Positions 2,417 through 17,948 of a DNA stretch of 26,871 nucleotides are shown here, piece after piece (position 1 is the first letter of the stretch; every line of letters begins with the position of its first letter). The notes under the pieces are model-generated. The model made no database searches. It had not been told where the DNA came from and was given only the letters and a program-made list of their open reading frames with translations. Origin of the DNA: a virus; IMG/VR virus record IMGVR_UViG_3300042558_002099, positions 1 to 26,871 of that record; one strand, given 5' to 3'. Position numbers and translations under genes: made by a program.

Positions 2417-2797
2417 CTAATTGTTGAGTATTGTTTCAATTACATTTATCCAATCACTTGCCGTTCTGCAAACATGCACGTAATGCCCATTATTAGCCCA
2501 AATAAGGTGTAGTTCTTTCTGTTCCCTACTAAGTACACCATTCGCCCCATTTTTCAGCTCTATTGCCGTTAATTTACCACCGTACACACAAAGCATATCA
2601 GGTACACCTGATGTAAGCCCTGTCGCTTTCATTTTCATTACCTCAATTTTGTTCCTGTACCCACCATTCGGCACACTGAATAATGTACCTCTTATTTCGG
2701 GATAGGTATTATGCGCCCACTGGTAACATGCGGCTTGTAGTTTATCTTCTGATGCCCACCCTATTGCATCTTGTTCGAGTAGTTGTTGTTTTGTCAT
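2417..2797 (-). CDS. VRR-NUC domain nuclease (126 aa)
   Basis: A single-domain PD-(D/E)XK nuclease of the VRR-NUC family. The family signature is visible in order: SEDKLQ with E17, SVPNGGYRNK (residues 41-50), KATGLTSGVPD with catalytic D67, AIELK with E80 and K82, then REQKEL with Q93 and a final GHYVHVC strand. The length fits stand-alone phage members. VRR-NUC proteins cut structured DNA such as Holliday junctions or flaps and are found in phage replication modules, so a role in resolving replication or recombination intermediates before packaging is likely. It lies downstream of the iteron-like region, next to the HNH-like gene. Confidence 0.9.
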   Translation of the reverse strand: MTKQQLLEQDAIGWASEDKLQAACYQWAHNTYPEIRGTLFSVPNGGYRNKIEVMKMKATGLTSGVPDMLCVYGGKLTAIELKNGANGVLSREQKELHLIWANNGHYVHVCRTASDWINVIETILNN

Positions 2798-2853
2798 TGC
2801 TCTAAGTGTAAAAGTTATTTTAGCTTTAATTGTGTTTTGTTATTTAAATGTTG

Positions 2854-3175
2854 GGTAACAAACTTTGACCAACTTTGTTACCTTTTTTTTGCAACTTTGT
2901 TACCGCTAACTCATTGATAATCAGTGCTTTTTTCGCCCAAAACGTCGGGTAACAAACTTTTACCCATTTTTCATAGCATTCTATAATAATAAAAAAAGTT
3001 GCAGCCCTTTTATTTTTTGCTTTTACTACTCTCTTCTTTTTTTTTCTCTATACACGTAATTAAGTAAAAAAGTCTGTAACTCTGTTACCTTTTGTATAAG
3101 TCATTGATAATCAAAGGCTTATCGGTAACAAACTTGGTAACAAACTTTGAAAAGGTAACAAGGAAGTTTGTTACC
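2854..3175. repeat. Nine-copy GGTAACAAA iteron-like cluster, candidate origin
   Basis: The 384-bp gap 2798-3181 has no gene but holds nine copies of GGTAACAAA or its complement. + copies are at 2854, 2948, 3124, 3136 and 3154 (last base G); - copies (TTTGTTACC) start at 2874, 2896, 3081 (one mismatch) and 3167. Several extend to GGTAACAAACTTTG. The 2854/2874 and 3154/3167 pairs form inverted repeats. A second motif, TCATTGATAATCA, occurs twice in direct orientation at 2911-2923 and 3101-3113. The segment between is AT-rich with long T and A runs. Repeats plus an AT-rich stretch directly behind the PrimPol-helicase gene fit an iteron origin; an operator array or decayed coding sequence is the alternative. 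Confidence 0.7.
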
Positions 3176-3181
3176 TTTTGC

Positions 3182-5689
3182 TTAAAATGGCACTTCCGCT
3201 GCTAAATTGCTATTTTTTTCGGGACTATCAAATAACTTATATCTATCAACTATACCATTTTCTTTGATTAGCACTTGTTTTTCAAAGTGTATTTCATGTT
3301 TTTGACAATAGCTTTCTAGTGCTGAATTAAGCCGTATAGATGATAACTTATACAATTTATTACCCCCATTATCAGAATAAAAGGTATCGTAGGTGTTATT
3401 GAACGCTTTAACTTGCACTTTTTTTATAAGTTTCCATTCTGTAATATTTTCCTCTATGAACTGTAAAGTTAATAATCCGTACTCTTGTTCAAATTGTTTT
3501 TGCCACCCACCTTCCGTTAATTGTGGGGCTGTAAGCCTCATGACCTTGAGCCACTGCTGAATAGATGCAAGGATAATGTTGTCGTAGGCTTGCCAATCTT
3601 CGGTAGTCCAGTCGGTAGGAAACATCTTGCCAAAGTGGGTATTTACGCCACCTGCTTTTGTAAAAAAGTCAGTAAATTCAATCGGTATAATTCTACGCCT
3701 TAAACCACCGTCTGACACCTCATAACTGTAATTTGTGCTGACTAATAGCTTAGGCATATCTCCCACATCAACGGTACTAATATTTTTGAATAACTTTTTG
3801 TTGATACCGTTACCGCTTGACAGTTCTTTAAGAAATAGGAAATCAAACTTTTTCGGCACATCTGATATTGATAGTACTTTTTCGTAGTCCCATGACTGCA
3901 AAAAATCCTTATCTAATACTACTTGACTTCCTGGCAGGTTCTTAACACTTGTAGCGTATTTAAGCATATTGCTAAATATGTTTTTACCGCTACCGCCCCC
4001 TGACTTTGGGTCGGGACATTGCTCAACTAATACTACTATATATGCGTCTGATTCGTCTTTAAATTCGTGGCATAGATAGCCAATACATTGCAATACGTGC
4101 GGTGTAACACTAACTGATAGGTCAAGATATTTGTAATAAAGTGAATTTTTATGGGTGTTATCTGTTGTTACTGTTAGGTCACGTAGTTGTATTTTGTTTT
4201 CCCATATTAATTTGTTAGCTGGTAGATTGCTGTAGGGTAGCACTTCAACTCCATCTTTATCAATAGTAGCATAGCAGTTGTTATAGAACTTATATGATAG
4301 GTGTTTAGTGGGGGTCAGTATGACTGATGTATCTAATATGGGTAGGCTGGCAATAATATGTTTGCCTGACTTTTGGATAAATTCATCTAACGCATTAAAA
4401 ACTGTTTCATACTCTTCGGCATCTTCGATATGTATGTATGATTTTAATTCATCAAAGTATGTACGTGCATCGGTACGACATATTTTGTACCCTTGTATTT
4501 TGGTTACATCTTCTTTATGTAAGCGATAGCCTAAGCCATGCGATACGGTGTACAATTTTTCTCGGCTGATGTATGTGCCGCCCTTGTCATTTATCGCCCA
4601 AAATATGCCATGTGGGTGCGTTTCTGTAGCCTTTTGTAGTATGTCCTGTACAAACTGCTTTGCCTCATCTGATATGTTAGCAGGTGTAGGGGTATTATAG
4701 GCTGTAGCGGTCTTAATTATCCGTTGTTCATGTTCATGTTTAATTTTACCATATCCACTATCTACTAAGTGACGGTATAGTTTTTTGTAGTCACCACCGA
4801 ATTGTAAAGTACATAGTACTGCTGCTGGTGTTAACCATTTGCCCGCCTCAAATTCGGTACTGGTGGTAAAAAAATAATATAATCGGTAATCTTTGCGAAA
4901 TGTTACAGATACGCCCCCTTCATTTCTGTTAGGTCGTGTCCACCTGCGGTACATATCATGGTCATTAAATATCTTATAACCATTAGCTGTTAATATGTCC
5001 TCTGCTGCTATGCTACCGTTAAAATGGTCGAATGGGTTTTCATCGTAGTAGTCAGTCTGTTTTTTAGTGGGCTTGTAGCTTACTTCTGCCTTTATGCGTT
5101 GGTTGTAGCTGATGCAAAGATTAATCAAGCTATCACGCTCTGATTGTGTGATTAGTGGTATGTTAGCACCCTGATGTATGGAATAGCCCATTGATGGCGG
5201 TGCGAGTGCGTAACCACCTTCTCCCCTTGTTTCAATACCACATTCTTTAACATCTGCTTTCCATGCCAATTTTTTATTCCCTTGCGCTTTACCGTCTGCA
5301 ATTCTGTATAGTATGTGATAGCCCCCTGACGGTGTTTTGTGTATGCGCAGCCTGTACCATAGTTCGGGGTATATTTGGCGTATATCGCTAAAAAGTCTAC
5401 CATCTATACCGTTCCAGTGCTTACAGTCTATGTCTATTATCTCTAAGTTACCAGATACTGCACCGCATACCATAGCAATAGCTGTAGTATTATGCTTATC
5501 CATCTCGTACCATAACGCCTCTTTGCTAATTATATTAGATTGGTATTGTTTCCAACCTGAATAGGCAACTTTAGCAGGTATGATAGTTCCATCTTGTTTT
5601 GTTTCTGCTTTGTCACGTACTGGTACAATGGATATACCAGCAGATAATAATTCCTGTACTTGCCCGAATACGGCAGATAGTTCTTGCAT
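3182..5689 (-). CDS. PrimPol-D5 type primase-helicase (835 aa)
   Basis: A multidomain replication protein. Residues about 10-200 are a bifunctional primase-polymerase (PrimPol/AEP) domain: catalytic DID at 86-88, SGGYH at 121-125 and ETRGEGGY at 153-160. Residues about 220-310 are a linker region. The C-terminal half is an SF3/D5-like helicase: Walker A GGGSGKN (564-570), VLSISDVPK as the Walker B region (605-613), sensor STNY (651-654) and arginine finger GGLRRR (661-666). A probable winged-helix tail (about 740-820) follows. It should unwind DNA and make primers at the phage origin, and may also extend them since no DNA polymerase is visible here. A structured segment precedes it and the iteron-like cluster follows its stop. 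Confidence 0.92.
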   Translation of the reverse strand: MQELSAVFGQVQELLSAGISIVPVRDKAETKQDGTIIPAKVAYSGWKQYQSNIISKEALWYEMDKHNTTAIAMVCGAVSGNLEIIDIDCKHWNGIDGRLFSDIRQIYPELWYRLRIHKTPSGGYHILYRIADGKAQGNKKLAWKADVKECGIETRGEGGYALAPPSMGYSIHQGANIPLITQSERDSLINLCISYNQRIKAEVSYKPTKKQTDYYDENPFDHFNGSIAAEDILTANGYKIFNDHDMYRRWTRPNRNEGGVSVTFRKDYRLYYFFTTSTEFEAGKWLTPAAVLCTLQFGGDYKKLYRHLVDSGYGKIKHEHEQRIIKTATAYNTPTPANISDEAKQFVQDILQKATETHPHGIFWAINDKGGTYISREKLYTVSHGLGYRLHKEDVTKIQGYKICRTDARTYFDELKSYIHIEDAEEYETVFNALDEFIQKSGKHIIASLPILDTSVILTPTKHLSYKFYNNCYATIDKDGVEVLPYSNLPANKLIWENKIQLRDLTVTTDNTHKNSLYYKYLDLSVSVTPHVLQCIGYLCHEFKDESDAYIVVLVEQCPDPKSGGGSGKNIFSNMLKYATSVKNLPGSQVVLDKDFLQSWDYEKVLSISDVPKKFDFLFLKELSSGNGINKKLFKNISTVDVGDMPKLLVSTNYSYEVSDGGLRRRIIPIEFTDFFTKAGGVNTHFGKMFPTDWTTEDWQAYDNIILASIQQWLKVMRLTAPQLTEGGWQKQFEQEYGLLTLQFIEENITEWKLIKKVQVKAFNNTYDTFYSDNGGNKLYKLSSIRLNSALESYCQKHEIHFEKQVLIKENGIVDRYKLFDSPEKNSNLAAEVPF

Positions 5690-7409: not shown

Positions 7410-7799
7410 TTAAAATGGTAGTTTATCTATAGCTTGTTGCATAGCTTGTTGGTTTTCTACTGGTGCGCTTTGCTGCTGCTGTGGTGCTGTGGTACTGGCT
7501 GCTACTGGCTCAATTTTCCACATATCCAAATTTACAATGTACTTAGTGCTACCATCTTTTTTGTCAACATAGCTGTTGCCCTTTACATTGAACGATACCG
7601 ATACTTGGCTGCCGATTGCGTACTTATCCAACACATCACACTTCGCCTGTACGGCTTGCATTTTGAGTGGATTTGGGTATTCCGTACCGTTTACGTTTTC
7701 TACTGTCATTAAGACAAATTCACGTTTCTTAAACTTATCTGATACCTGTTGTGTTTCAGATTTGGCAATCAGTGTGCCTGTTAGATTAAAGCTACTCAT
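7410..7799 (-). CDS. DUF3127-type OB-fold SSB-like protein (129 aa)
   Basis: The N-terminal 95 residues match the DUF3127 family of Bacteroidota phages, an OB-fold thought to act as a single-strand DNA-binding protein: FNLTGTLIAKSETQQVSDKFKKREFVL is broken here as FNLTGTLIAK and KKREFVLMTV, followed by PLKMQAVQ, GSQVSVSFNVKG and a WKIEP end strand. A Gln/Pro/Ala-rich linker (about 97-122) leads to the tip DKLPF, which resembles the acidic DDDIPF tip that bacterial SSB uses to recruit partners. I infer it coats ssDNA during phage replication and calls in the helicases encoded next to it. It starts after ACAAAACAAACAAT. Confidence 0.85.
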   Translation of the reverse strand: MSSFNLTGTLIAKSETQQVSDKFKKREFVLMTVENVNGTEYPNPLKMQAVQAKCDVLDKYAIGSQVSVSFNVKGNSYVDKKDGSTKYIVNLDMWKIEPVAASTTAPQQQQSAPVENQQAMQQAIDKLPF

Positions 7800-7825: not shown

Positions 7826-8014
7826 TTAAATTATTGGTGTTAAAAGTTTTGTTGATACTATAAATAAATTATCGTCTTTTTCTCGGCTTACTTTGCAAAA
7901 CATACCGTCTGCACCCTCATGCATACATACCACCGTTACTACATCCCCCTTACTTGCTACCTTAATTTTGCCTAGTACCTTATCTTCTTTTAGGCGGTAT
8001 CTGTTATTCTCCAT
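7826..8014 (-). CDS. Small hypothetical protein, SH3-like (62 aa)
   Basis: A small, basic, probably all-beta protein. KGDVVTVVCMHEG followed by MFCKVSREKDDNLFIVSTKLL looks like a mini SH3-type barrel with an initial YRLKEDKVLGKI strand. I cannot assign it to a family. It overlaps the 3' end of the gene at 8004 by 11 nt, which indicates translational coupling in the replication transcript. Its stop is 26 nt before the SSB-like gene's start. Confidence 0.6.
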   Translation of the reverse strand: MENNRYRLKEDKVLGKIKVASKGDVVTVVCMHEGADGMFCKVSREKDDNLFIVSTKLLTPII

Positions 8015-10554: not shown

Positions 10555-11094
10555 TTAGTTATAAAATATTAAATCTGATTGCTGTTGTTTAACCTTTGCT
10601 TTGGGTATCGGCTTTCGCTGGTGGATATGGCTTTGTTCTTGTGATTGCTGATACCTTTTATTAAACCTTGCTATGGCATTTTCCGCTTCATTAGGGTACA
10701 CCATTATGCTAGTCTTACTATCTACTATCACCCTTACTTTTTGCGGTCTATTTTGCTCTGCTATTACTATCCCCTCTTTAGTTTCAATCCGTTGTAGTGC
10801 TTTATCCTTAGCAGCCAAACTACACTCCATCGTTTGTACTACCTTTGTTCTTTTTGGTTTTGGTGGTGCAATGTTACGGCTTTTAATTGGTGTTGTTGTT
10901 TTTTCTTTTGGGTCGGGAAAATCACGATACTTTAGTTGACCGTTGTGTGTCATCCACTTTTTATTTCTGTATGGTAAGGTGTCCGCAAACTTATACAGTG
11001 TGGCAATCTTTTTGTAACTACCTTCCCCGATGTGTTCCATTACATGATATGCGTTACGTGCCGCCTTTACTTTAAAGTGTCCAATTTTAGGCAT
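10555..11094 (-). CDS. Hypothetical basic protein (179 aa)
   Basis: No family is recognised. Residues 1-65 look folded (KIGHFKVKAARNAYHVMEHIGEG, then a YKFADTLPYRNKKW region). A Lys/Pro-rich linker with KPKRTK follows (about 66-85), then a second folded part with QKVRVIVDSKTSIMVYPNEAENAIARFNK (about 117-145), and a Gln/Lys-rich tail. The high basic content and its place between DNA-handling genes suggest nucleic-acid binding, but this is inference. It overlaps the gene at 11087 by 8 nt. Confidence 0.6.
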   Translation of the reverse strand: MPKIGHFKVKAARNAYHVMEHIGEGSYKKIATLYKFADTLPYRNKKWMTHNGQLKYRDFPDPKEKTTTPIKSRNIAPPKPKRTKVVQTMECSLAAKDKALQRIETKEGIVIAEQNRPQKVRVIVDSKTSIMVYPNEAENAIARFNKRYQQSQEQSHIHQRKPIPKAKVKQQQSDLIFYN

Positions 11095-11479
11095 TTTGAT
11101 TAGATTTTAGTTGTTCGTTAAATATTTCTTGTAGCACTTTAGTTACTTCAGCTACATTTTTTACACCCGAAATAAAGTCAAGTAATAGCCCGATATCTTC
11201 TATTCGTTCGCTTGTATAATCTTGTTCTAGTACATGCCAACTATCACTATTGCCAAATAACTTTAATTCGGTTCTTATGATTTCCATTGCGCTTATTTGT
11301 CTGCTTATAGCTTTTTTCAAATCATCTGTACCAGTTCTTTTACTTTCAATTAGGTATGGATTAAGTCGCAATGATTCAAGCGTATAAGATGCAATAGTGT
11401 TAAGGTATAGTATTCGTCTAAGGTCATTCATTAAGTCATCAAATGCTATTTCTGCGTATGTTCTTTTTGTGGGAGTCAT
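11087..11479 (-). CDS. Hypothetical helical protein (130 aa)
   Basis: A mostly helical, soluble protein with regular charged and hydrophobic spacing (MTPTKRTYAEIAFDDLMNDL at the start; DLKKAISRQISAMEIIRTEL; ERIEDIGLLLDFISGV; EVTKVLQEIFNEQLK). It might oligomerise. It overlaps the DnaA-like gene by 4 nt (ATGA junction), so it is likely translated with it and could be its partner. No domain is recognised. Confidence 0.6.
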   Translation of the reverse strand: MTPTKRTYAEIAFDDLMNDLRRILYLNTIASYTLESLRLNPYLIESKRTGTDDLKKAISRQISAMEIIRTELKLFGNSDSWHVLEQDYTSERIEDIGLLLDFISGVKNVAEVTKVLQEIFNEQLKSNQNA

Positions 11480-11826
11480 TTTTGTAAGTTTAGCTGTGTG
11501 TTAATTGCTGATATATTGTACTTCATTTCGTCATCGTTTTGCAGTAACCTTTCAACCTTATTTAGTGCATGTATTACGCTTGTATGGTCTTTCTTATTGT
11601 ACATATTGGTAATCGCTTGCAATGTCATTCCTGTAGTGCGCAAATAGTACCAAATTAAGTGCCTACATTCTGTAATATTGTATCGTCTGCTACCTGTCTT
11701 CACTTGCTCAATAGTCACCTTAAAATGGCTGCAAACTACTTGTTCTATTCGTTCAACTGTTAGCACTCCTTTGTATTTGCGCTCCAACCAAAACTGCTCT
11801 TCTATGTATTTTGCTGTTATTATCAT
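11476..11826 (-). CDS. DnaA domain-IV-only protein (116 aa)
   Basis: Residues about 22-90 match the C-terminal DNA-binding domain of DnaA (Bac_DnaA_C): VERIEQVVCSHFKVT, a TGSRRYNITECRHLIWYYLR helix pair, MTLQAITNMYNKK, and the box-recognising signature DHTSVIHALNKV. There is no AAA+ ATPase domain. Such stand-alone domains could bind an origin or compete with host DnaA. I chose the ATG at 11826 because it lies 7 nt after the preceding stop in a TAACATG context; an ATG 27 nt upstream would overlap the preceding gene by 20 nt. It overlaps the next gene by 4 nt. Confidence 0.88.
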   Translation of the reverse strand: MIITAKYIEEQFWLERKYKGVLTVERIEQVVCSHFKVTIEQVKTGSRRYNITECRHLIWYYLRTTGMTLQAITNMYNKKDHTSVIHALNKVERLLQNDDEMKYNISAINTQLNLQK

Positions 11827-11833
11827 GTTAGGG

Positions 11834-12325
11834 TTATTTAAGTGTAACTGCAATAGATGTAGTAGATGTTTTGATTGGTTTTAGTAGTGTAGACACTTCT
11901 CCTGTGGCACTGTCCACTATATCCAATCCACTAGGCGGTAATGATTTTAAAAACTCCTCACGTTCCTTTATCTTGGCTTTTAGTTCTGCCATTTCTGCAT
12001 ACAACCCATCAATCACGCTATCTCCACAATGTGCAAAATCATACTTCGTTCCTACCTCTTGAATACGAAAATTAGCGTTATGCAAATCAAAGTTTTTACC
12101 ATGCTTTGCGGCTTGGGTAAGTAGCATTTCCTTGTACTCTTTATCCTCTGATAGTTCCTTAATCAAAGCCTCTGTATTCTTTACCTGTAAATGCACCTTT
12201 AATGGGTCTGTAATGCCGTCTTTTAGGCTGTTTATTACCGAACGTACAAATGATGTACGCTCGGCTTTGGTGGTTTCAAATAGGCTTAAAATTGATGTTG
12301 CTGATAATTCGTTATTTGTGTGCAT
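11834..12325 (-). CDS. Coiled-coil phage protein next to Sak4-like ATPase (163 aa)
   Basis: A mainly helical protein with a charged coiled-coil stretch near residues 108-130 (YAEMAELKAKIKEREEFLKS). The C-terminal 30 residues are low-complexity Ser/Thr-rich. The N-terminal half (LSLFETTKAERTSFVRSVIN...) is helical. It starts inside the end of the Sak4-like gene (14-nt overlap), so the two are translationally coupled. Phages often put an accessory protein beside their annealing ATPase, which makes a recombination role likely, but the sequence alone does not name a family. Confidence 0.65.
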   Translation of the reverse strand: MHTNNELSATSILSLFETTKAERTSFVRSVINSLKDGITDPLKVHLQVKNTEALIKELSEDKEYKEMLLTQAAKHGKNFDLHNANFRIQEVGTKYDFAHCGDSVIDGLYAEMAELKAKIKEREEFLKSLPPSGLDIVDSATGEVSTLLKPIKTSTTSIAVTLK

Positions 12326-13176: not shown

Positions 13177-13207
13177 TAAATGTACAAAATGTTATTTGAA
13201 TTTCAAA
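13177..13207 (-). promoter_or_regulatory. Promoter for the Sak4-like gene
   Basis: On the - strand TTTG (13207-13204) is followed after exactly 19 nt by TACATTTA (13184-13177), one base from the Bacteroidota consensus TTTG-N19-TAnnTTTG. It overlaps the last codons of the preceding gene and lies 29 nt before the ATG at 13148. It should give an extra transcript start for the recombination genes. Confidence 0.75.
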
Positions 13208-13572
13208 GTAACTTGTATCTCTTTACCACATTTATTTTTACTTGCTATGTTGTGGGCTTTCCAGTTGTTAGGTCGTTTAAGTAGCTGGTGAACTGTGCTG
13301 CTATGTTTGCCCCAAATTGCGGATAGCTCTTTGATGTTGAATGTTAGGTCTAGGTCGGCAAATAGTATATGGTCGGTTACTTCGTTAGGTTTGGTGAAAA
13401 TATACAAATACGTGCTATCATCCAGCCATAAACACACACAATCATTATCAGCATTAAACGGTAATGCTGGTTCTTGCTCCATGTAATCTAGTACTTGCGT
13501 TAAAAAATTGCGCTGCTCGATTGATGTGGTAACTATTGTTAATTTGTTTTCGATTGCTTTGAAAATGTGCAT
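13192..13572 (-). CDS. Putative DNA-binding (HTH-like) protein (126 aa)
   Basis: Residues about 77-113 (FNIKELSAIWGKHSSTVHQLLKR, here split as FNIKELSAIWG and KHSSTVHQLLK) have the spacing of a helix-turn-helix: helix, short turn, then a recognition helix with S-S-T-V-H-Q. The N-terminal 75 residues are alpha/beta with an acidic patch (NADNDCVCLWLDD). No family name is certain. It sits at the head of the recombination genes, and the promoter of the Sak4-like gene overlaps its 3' end, so it could regulate this transcript. A small gene overlaps its start by 34 nt. Confidence 0.6.
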   Translation of the reverse strand: MHIFKAIENKLTIVTTSIEQRNFLTQVLDYMEQEPALPFNADNDCVCLWLDDSTYLYIFTKPNEVTDHILFADLDLTFNIKELSAIWGKHSSTVHQLLKRPNNWKAHNIASKNKCGKEIQVTLKFK

Positions 13573-17921: not shown

Positions 17922-17948
17922 TATACGTGATTATGTGAATAATGTCGG

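Follow-up and report, generated by a model that had tools for sequence, protein, structure and literature searches.

A repeat array directly downstream of a PrimPol-helicase gene as the probable replication origin of a tailed phage, with iterons and helicase tip as a putative exchangeable address cassette

Introduction

Why would a virus carry nine copies of a short repeat, on both strands, in a gene-free gap between a PrimPol-helicase gene and a VRR-NUC nuclease gene? The DNA analyzed in the current study, referred to here as the window, is the complete 26,871-nt stretch of the IMG/VR virus record IMGVR_UViG_3300042558_002099. It encodes a major head protein as well as a head maturation protease and it is part of a tailed phage. 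An earlier note, made from the sequence alone, regarded the repeats as the iterons of a replication origin, which would be read either by the PrimPol-helicase or by a protein resembling domain IV of DnaA.

Two relevant features are already known from other genetic elements, namely the layout of PICI origins (PMC6092414) and the swapping of initiator domains together with origins in PLE (PMC8263062), both described in the literature. PICI origins consist of two iteron sets around an AT-rich stretch, located directly 3' of the initiator-helicase gene, and according to PMC6092414 no other known bacterial replicon has this layout. The C-terminal domain of the SaPI Rep is reported to recognise an origin that directly follows the helicase gene (PMC7581432). 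Within the open-licence PubMed Central text searched, we found no report of an iteron grammar, a wing-residue relation or a cassette swap in tailed phages.

Results

A recount of the repeats yielded the same nine copies as described in the earlier note, seven of them exact copies of GGTAACAAA and two with one mismatch, distributed over both strands. All seven exact copies in the window lie inside 2854-3175 (0.57 expected, with a maximum of 3 in 100 dinucleotide shuffles), and the remainder of the 26,871 nt contains none. When a single mismatch is permitted, the entire window has 22 matches versus 13.7 expected, and there is consequently nothing unusual about one-mismatch copies beyond the gap. 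The 7-mer core TGTTACC/GGTAACA likewise occurs 18 times in the window and 9 times in the gap; it is the clustering, not the bare core, that makes the array remarkable. No other repeat cluster in this contig is as significant as the array, and the same is true of G002, a 46-kb contig that includes the whole window at 100% identity. The features of the locus are as follows.

2417..2797, minus strand: VRR-NUC nuclease gene, the next gene past the proposed origin (PF08774, E 5e-5, narrowly missing the curated cut-off; phrog_824)
2854..2862, plus strand: iteron GGTAACAAA, set 1, exact copy
2874..2882, minus strand: iteron, set 1, exact copy
2896..2904, minus strand: iteron, set 1, exact copy
2911..2923, plus strand: second direct repeat TCATTGATAATCA, copy 1, exact repeat
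2948..2956, plus strand: iteron, set 1, exact copy
2960..3080, no strand: AT-rich spacer between the iteron sets, 74.4% AT, candidate melting region
3075..3081, plus strand: one copy of the lineage B iteron type (below), TGTAACT, within the lineage A array, by sequence match
3081..3089, minus strand: iteron, set 2, one mismatch
3101..3113, plus strand: second direct repeat TCATTGATAATCA, copy 2, exact repeat
3124..3132, plus strand: iteron, set 2, exact copy
3136..3144, plus strand: iteron, set 2, exact copy
3150..3179, no strand: 12-bp perfect inverted repeat directly past the helicase stop codon, composed of two iterons and their flanks, from a repeat search
3154..3162, plus strand: iteron, set 2, one mismatch
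3167..3175, minus strand: iteron, set 2, exact copy
3182..5689, minus strand: PrimPol-helicase, 835 aa, proposed initiator (Prim-Pol PF09250, E 8e-10; phrog_19930; phrog_28855)
3185..3271, minus strand: PrimPol-helicase residues 807-835, putative iteron reader, the sole segment in which lineages A and B differ consistently

The gap extends over 384 bp (2798-3181), directly 3' of the PrimPol-helicase stop codon and with the VRR-NUC gene on its other side; it contains no listed ORF of at least 60 aa and has A or T at 268 of its 384 bases. Its iterons are split into a set of four (2854-2956) and a set of five (3081-3175), a division not mentioned in the earlier note, and these sets flank a spacer that only 73 of the 26,752 120-mers of the window exceed in AT content. 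The window thus resembles the PICI and SaPI origins both in having its gap immediately 3' of the PrimPol-helicase, a presumed initiator, and in having four plus five copies around an AT-rich spacer. The gene-free gap, the AT-rich runs between copies and the 13-bp direct repeat were all reported in the earlier note and are borne out here. TCATTGATAATCA is present once within each iteron set, and in lineage B one copy is exact and the other altered; it could be the site of a second protein. The inverted repeat at 3150..3179 could serve as the terminator of the helicase transcript. A search of window positions 2600-3400 against Rfam yielded no match. The cumulative GC skew, which had been proposed as a check on the origin, speaks against it: over most of the 46-kb contig the curve rises, it then barely changes between approximately 22 and 40 kb, and it does not turn at the array.

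The PrimPol-helicase matches phrog_19930 (DNA polymerase/primase) with an E value of 2e-46 and phrog_28855 over residues 410-715, within which GGGSGKN at residues 564-570 was read by eye as a Walker A motif. Pfam and PDB searches with the protein gave no VapE, D5 or PDB match outside of the Prim-Pol domain, while profile comparisons yielded a probability of 0.3% for its tail against the VapE C-terminal domain and no detectable match of the protein to a D5 helicase. The model of its C-terminal fold was unreliable (pLDDT 48). By these searches, the homologous core and C-terminal domain characteristic of the SaPI Rep/VapE family were not found in the window protein. The protein ends in EVPF (3185-3196), and an SSB-like protein of the window (phrog_4932) ends in KLPF (7413-7424); two helicases from other loci, L047 and L052, end in LPF/LPFK. 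Such endings resemble the C-terminal tip of bacterial SSB and may represent a shared docking tail.

Ten contigs encode a helicase 97-100% identical to that of the window, some of them covering only part of it, and they fall into lineage A (L001-L004, L007, L009 and L010, of which L001-L003 are the window's own sequence) and lineage B (L005, L006 and L008). The seven exact repeats are kept in all seven lineage A contigs, and none is there in the three lineage B contigs, in which the gap can still be aligned and the array instead consists of TGTAAC/GTTACA in 10 copies (p 3e-10). Six of the nine lineage A sites are changed in place in lineage B and three are lost, with further lineage B copies located elsewhere; columns within the sites are less conserved between the lineages than the others (42/63 vs 252/316, Fisher p 0.03). 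Between the helicases of the two lineages, residues 1-806 are free of consistent differences, and ten such differences fall at 807-832, including 807, 808 and 814. At the nucleotide level, the lineages are 92-97% identical over three 100-nt bins that precede the last bin of the helicase gene, drop to 61-87% between -100 and +400 relative to the helicase stop, and return to 92-93% from +400 to +700. This dip is absent between two lineage A phages, and beyond +700 identity falls in the A/B and A/A comparisons alike. Other proteins also differ between the lineages, as judged from one lineage B contig each (seven differences in an SF2 helicase, 10 in the ORF at 10555-11094, 13 in that at 7826-8014 and 23 in that at 13192-13572), and linkage alone therefore does not single out the helicase. 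To judge from these alignments, it is marked out by the confinement of its differences to the tip, not by their number. The helicase of L007 (lineage A) is cut to 826 residues by an extra A in an A-run just before the usual end, either a sequencing error or natural slippage.

The earlier note had also suggested a search for the motif beside this gene in related phages and had given related phages with intact coding sequence in this region as evidence against an origin. The motif persists throughout lineage A, whereas lineage B has switched to another, and the objection applies in part to L011, whose helicase is 51% identical: a different sequence directly follows its helicase, and its 10.9-kb contig contains no repeat cluster at p<1e-6.

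A wider set of loci was assembled from four overlapping scans by VapE-helicase homology, each retaining the best 80 loci nearest its query, for 320 loci together. Query A1 comprised seven helicases with seen or suspected arrays, and queries A2 and A3 were members of the first set, mostly array-bearing. The helicase ORF was closed, as judged by a fixed residue pattern, in 245 loci, of which 241 had enough downstream DNA and 176 were non-redundant. With an array called from an over-represented 6-mer at p<1e-6, arrays were detected in 132 of the 176 gaps 3' of VapE helicases among the matches listed, a rate that describes this clade rather than phages at large, since the queries were selected and the nearest loci kept. 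In control regions, arrays were called in 5/176 of the last 463 coding bases, 2/172 at +900 and 1/176 mid-gene, and in none of 176 Markov shuffles. When the 132 arrays were aligned by expectation-maximisation with no motif given, a single core emerged: G-T, then two or three variable bases, then C. The resulting meta-motif (G 0.88, T 0.90, C-rich at positions 7-8) scored 5.19, versus 1.70-1.81 for four column-permuted controls, and the iteron core common to the arrays among the matches listed can be written as G-T-N-N-M-C.

A clean core was present in 120 of the 132 arrays, and these were used for the covariation test below. Among the matches listed, 97 of these 120 have an internal spacer of at least 60 bp, which in 88 of them is more AT-rich than its region, at least two copies lie on each side of the largest spacer in 66, and both strands are used in 119. 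A VRR-NUC-like ORF lies no more than 1.4 kb past the array in 115 of the 120 VapE loci, again among the matches listed, and the order helicase, origin, VRR-NUC is thus a conserved block in this VapE clade.

Twenty stretches from named phages were collected by helicase homology, 18 via queries found beside arrays and two via the window helicase. By inspection of the sequence and k-mer counts, an array lies directly past the helicase in 12 of the 20 (LfeSau, NatCom_6238, Ted, ECel-2020f, SamW, Bacuni_F1, Javan135, 98201, phiRg507T2_3, THSA-485A, AC844P2 and PeggyLeg03), and the remaining eight have none (BX788P2, BO668P1, SJC14, 9NA, Vibrio 1.103.O, MSF2, Abt2graduatex2 and phi40:1). PT1028 of Staphylococcus aureus, which we read as SaPI-like, has GTTCCC repeats past its helicase. 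Among distant relatives of the PrimPol protein, L498 has a GTGGC-type array (p 2e-11) and L499-L505 have repeats of the CGGTCAA type, outside of the G-T-N-N-M-C grammar (p 1e-5 to 1e-8); L506 and L507 have no array. Downstream of the PrimPol gene in L499-L505, the TTGACCG/CGGTCAA repeats are followed by a hairpin-like CCCCCCCC-TATAAG-GGGGGG.

A separate search for paired GGTAACAAA was treated solely as a lead, as its matches were selected on the motif and, among those listed, are mixed with coding repeats; L063 and L024, both collagen-like, and L116, with another repeat, were read by eye as coding repeats and not as arrays. The array-adjacent helicases among the matches listed belong to several families (VapE, D5, DUF927, AAA_25 and Toprim), and some of the types lack a Prim-Pol match at E 0.01. 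Some GGTAACAAA clusters among these matches adjoin other genes, and L130 has no adjacent helicase. At L123:271 and L087:3465, five GGTAACAAA copies lie beside a shared gene that we read as integrase-like, with no helicase among the nearby listed ORFs. At L090:7086-7175 and L088:652-741, the copies lie within a phage gene, and in L090 the next gene was read as helicase-like; this placement recalls the origins inside lambda-type O genes.

Which part of a helicase corresponds to its iteron was examined across the VapE set. Identity over the whole C-terminal domain predicted the iteron weakly in a Mantel comparison of 59 loci (partial correlation 0.057, with 18 of 300 permutations as high), and this comparison was replaced by a column-wise test of 792 alignment columns in 120 loci against the four variable iteron bases, excluding pairs above 90% identity. 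Two columns stand out with z scores of 19.3 and 18.1, the next reaching 8.4, and permuting the labels 200 times reached at most 9.5 when done freely and, in another 200 rounds within clades, at most 10.2. As the column-wise test was picked after a trio of phages (L191/L194/L196, below) had been seen, its strength rests on these permutations. Both residues are found on the wing of a C-terminal winged helix, at 83 and 92 of the modeled fragment (numbers converted by hand from the alignment columns), on strands 77-85 and 92-98. The VapE C-terminal domain is modeled as a winged helix with a pLDDT of 93, and the nearest solved structure is 7pds, PriRep1 with dsDNA (TM 0.74-0.79), which we take to be a SaPI Rep. 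The helicase of L191 matches 7pds at E 2e-92 over residues 358-784, spanning the ATPase and the C-terminal domain, and the comparison loci have both the homologous helicase core and the C-terminal domain of the SaPI Rep/VapE family.

Lys at the first wing residue is accompanied by CC at iteron positions 7-8 in 26 of 26 cases (21/21 viral, 5/5 genomic), versus 17/84 for other residues. Among pairs less than 50% identical in the rest of the protein, the same iteron occurs in 43/71 of those sharing both residues versus 110/3554 of those sharing neither, and the corresponding values for pairs 80-100% identical are 11/12 and 2/38. For the 70 of the 120 loci that could be matched among loci below 60% identity, the residue pair predicted the iteron correctly in 29 and the nearest neighbor in 11; this fraction of 0.41 compares with at most 0.27, and a mean of 0.09, for 300 random pairs of variable columns. 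A two-residue rule trained on viral contigs was exact for 3 of 15 genome loci and the nearest neighbor for 1 of 15 (22 loci, of which seven had no training match). Exact prediction on the genome loci is thus poor, and taken together these results indicate that the two residues matter, but do not alone fix the iteron.

The trio consists of L191, of L194 with L195, and of L196, whose helicases are 98-99% identical and whose iterons are of three different types. Between types, 9-16 residues differ, and the final eighth of the helicase accounts for 9-12 of these. The DNA is 98-100% identical on either side of a stretch of approximately 400 bp, from -100 to +300 of the helicase stop, within which identity falls to 53-95%; L191 diverges again from the other two types beyond +2100. 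The alignment of the trio offers a direct view of a swap of wing plus array. The linked change of both could be partly hitch-hiking in one recombination tract.

Discussion

Based upon these features, we consider it quite probable that the array is the replication origin of the phage, of the PICI/SaPI-like type, that the helicase tip binds the iterons, and that iterons and tip together constitute an exchangeable address cassette. The PrimPol-helicase, encoded just upstream, would bind the iterons via its C-terminal tip, assemble on both iteron sets and melt the AT-rich spacer between them, after which it would load itself and its Prim-Pol domain would prime DNA synthesis. Presumably, related phages swap the iteron sequence and the C-terminal tip together and thereby change the origin that the helicase serves. 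Binding, melting, loading and origin firing are steps that we infer, whereas the array, its place, its layout and the linked A/B switch can be read from the window and its relatives. For the VapE-helicase phages, the sequences likewise show that arrays are prevalent, that the iterons have a common core and that two wing residues covary with the iteron bases. The origin proposed in the earlier note gains support from this comparison, as arrays 3' of VapE-type helicases are far more frequent than in control regions.

Phage P4 alpha protein is a primase-helicase with an origin-binding C-terminus and type I iterons. In the VapE phages, the wing likely binds the array, given the homology of these helicases to PriRep1 and the origin recognition reported for the C-terminal domain of SaPI Rep; their helicases match PriRep1 in both the ATPase and the C-terminal domain. 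The window differs from the PICI/SaPI systems in that its origin would belong to a tailed phage with head genes, which a PICI satellite does not carry as a full virion set, and in that its PrimPol-helicase has no detectable homology to 7pds. That its tip works like the VapE wing is an analogy, for which the linked switch, the iteron grammar (TGTTACC, with TGTAACT for lineage B), the position and the layout all agree. SCCmec Cch2 is a further parallel, with AAGTG direct repeats immediately past the gene of a relative of SaPI Rep, a helicase whose isolated C-terminal domain binds the origin, although its iteron is another one, its primase is separate and it is not a phage (PMC7581432).

Four other explanations deserve consideration. 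Firstly, the repeats could be template start sites for the Prim-Pol domain, comparable to TTTGGTTA for the NrS-1 polymerase, rather than double-stranded sites for the helicase tip, which we regard as unlikely. The N-terminal domain is indeed a Prim-Pol, the NrS-1 site 5'-TTTGGTTA-3' resembles TTTGTTACC (PMC8718748), and CCPol-MP of SCCmec primes efficiently on its own iterons (PMC7581432). NrS-1 PrimPol is also a phage Prim-Pol with a helicase ring that needs an 8-nt site, but it has two mid-genome copies that are read as a priming template and no array, as described in the excerpts of PMC8718748 and PMC7102993. In the window, TTTGGTTA occurs four times, but never within the gap; the A/B switch is accompanied by no consistent difference in the Prim-Pol domain, and helicases with no Prim-Pol match at E 0.01 also adjoin arrays among the matches listed.

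Secondly, the origin could be a large stem-loop 3' of the replication gene, with the iterons as by-products of its stem, a scenario that appears somewhat less probable still. ORF904 of pRN1 resembles the window protein in combining Prim-Pol and helicase and in having a putative origin 3' of its own gene, and its authors report similar stem-loops in several phages; the element required downstream of the pRN1 gene, however, is a stem-loop of approximately 100 nt and not a set of iterons (PMC4234260). The array strand folds better than shuffles (z -4.9), but the iteron copies are inverted relative to each other, which alone would account for the folding. Furthermore, lineage B has altered six of the nine lineage A sites in place, and the site columns are the less conserved ones.

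Thirdly, the array could be an origin with the DnaA-domain-IV protein (11476-11853) as its reader, the other candidate of the earlier note and, in our estimation, a very improbable one. The protein has a good Bac_DnaA_C domain (E 8e-17, with the DnaA_C match at residues 33-100), but it hardly changes when the iteron switches: the one lineage B contig compared shows a single A/B difference, at residue 105 and thus outside of the domain match, and a lineage A copy (G004, 95.2% identical) is as far from the window as the lineage B copy (95.7%). The remark that the repeat does not look like a DnaA box holds as well, as the window contains no TTATCCACA box, the gap contains no TTATNCACA, and the single relaxed match in the window is at 17934. 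In the VapE set, moreover, the iteron follows the wing residues of the helicase. Of the two proposed readers, the helicase is consequently favoured, its tip being what switches with the array.

Lastly, operators for a regulator of the downstream VRR-NUC/HNH genes are equally improbable: the gap is also the VRR-NUC leader region and 2750-3250 contains one promoter-like and one terminator-like match (means of 1.4 and 0.3 in shuffles), but the promoter-like matches are thus no more frequent than in shuffles, the VapE-set array covaries with the helicase that ends there, and the layout is that of PICI origins.

Returning to an origin read by the helicase tip, a broader scenario seems to us somewhat better than an even proposition: many tailed phages may start replication at iteron origins directly past the gene of a self-loading helicase, with a G-T-N-N-M-C grammar set largely by about two wing residues, and near-identical phages may exchange a cassette of approximately 400 bp, leaving close relatives with origins that are incompatible with one another; satellites, competitors or nucleases directed at origins possibly supply the selective pressure. 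The PLE RepA/ori of Vibrio cholerae provides a parallel, in which the DNA-binding domain and the origin covary and are swapped as a module, and its authors suggest that an origin-directed nuclease selected for such swaps; the PLE initiator is nevertheless a RepA_N protein and not a helicase, and the whole domain is swapped, not a wing tip (PMC8263062).

The occurrence of such arrays in many phages ties satellites and phages together. As a specificity module, a swap limited to the wing and the array would be unusually small. Should the two-residue relation prove real, sequence alone could serve to locate origins and to assign each to its helicase, and the causes of the rapid diversification of origin addresses would become testable.
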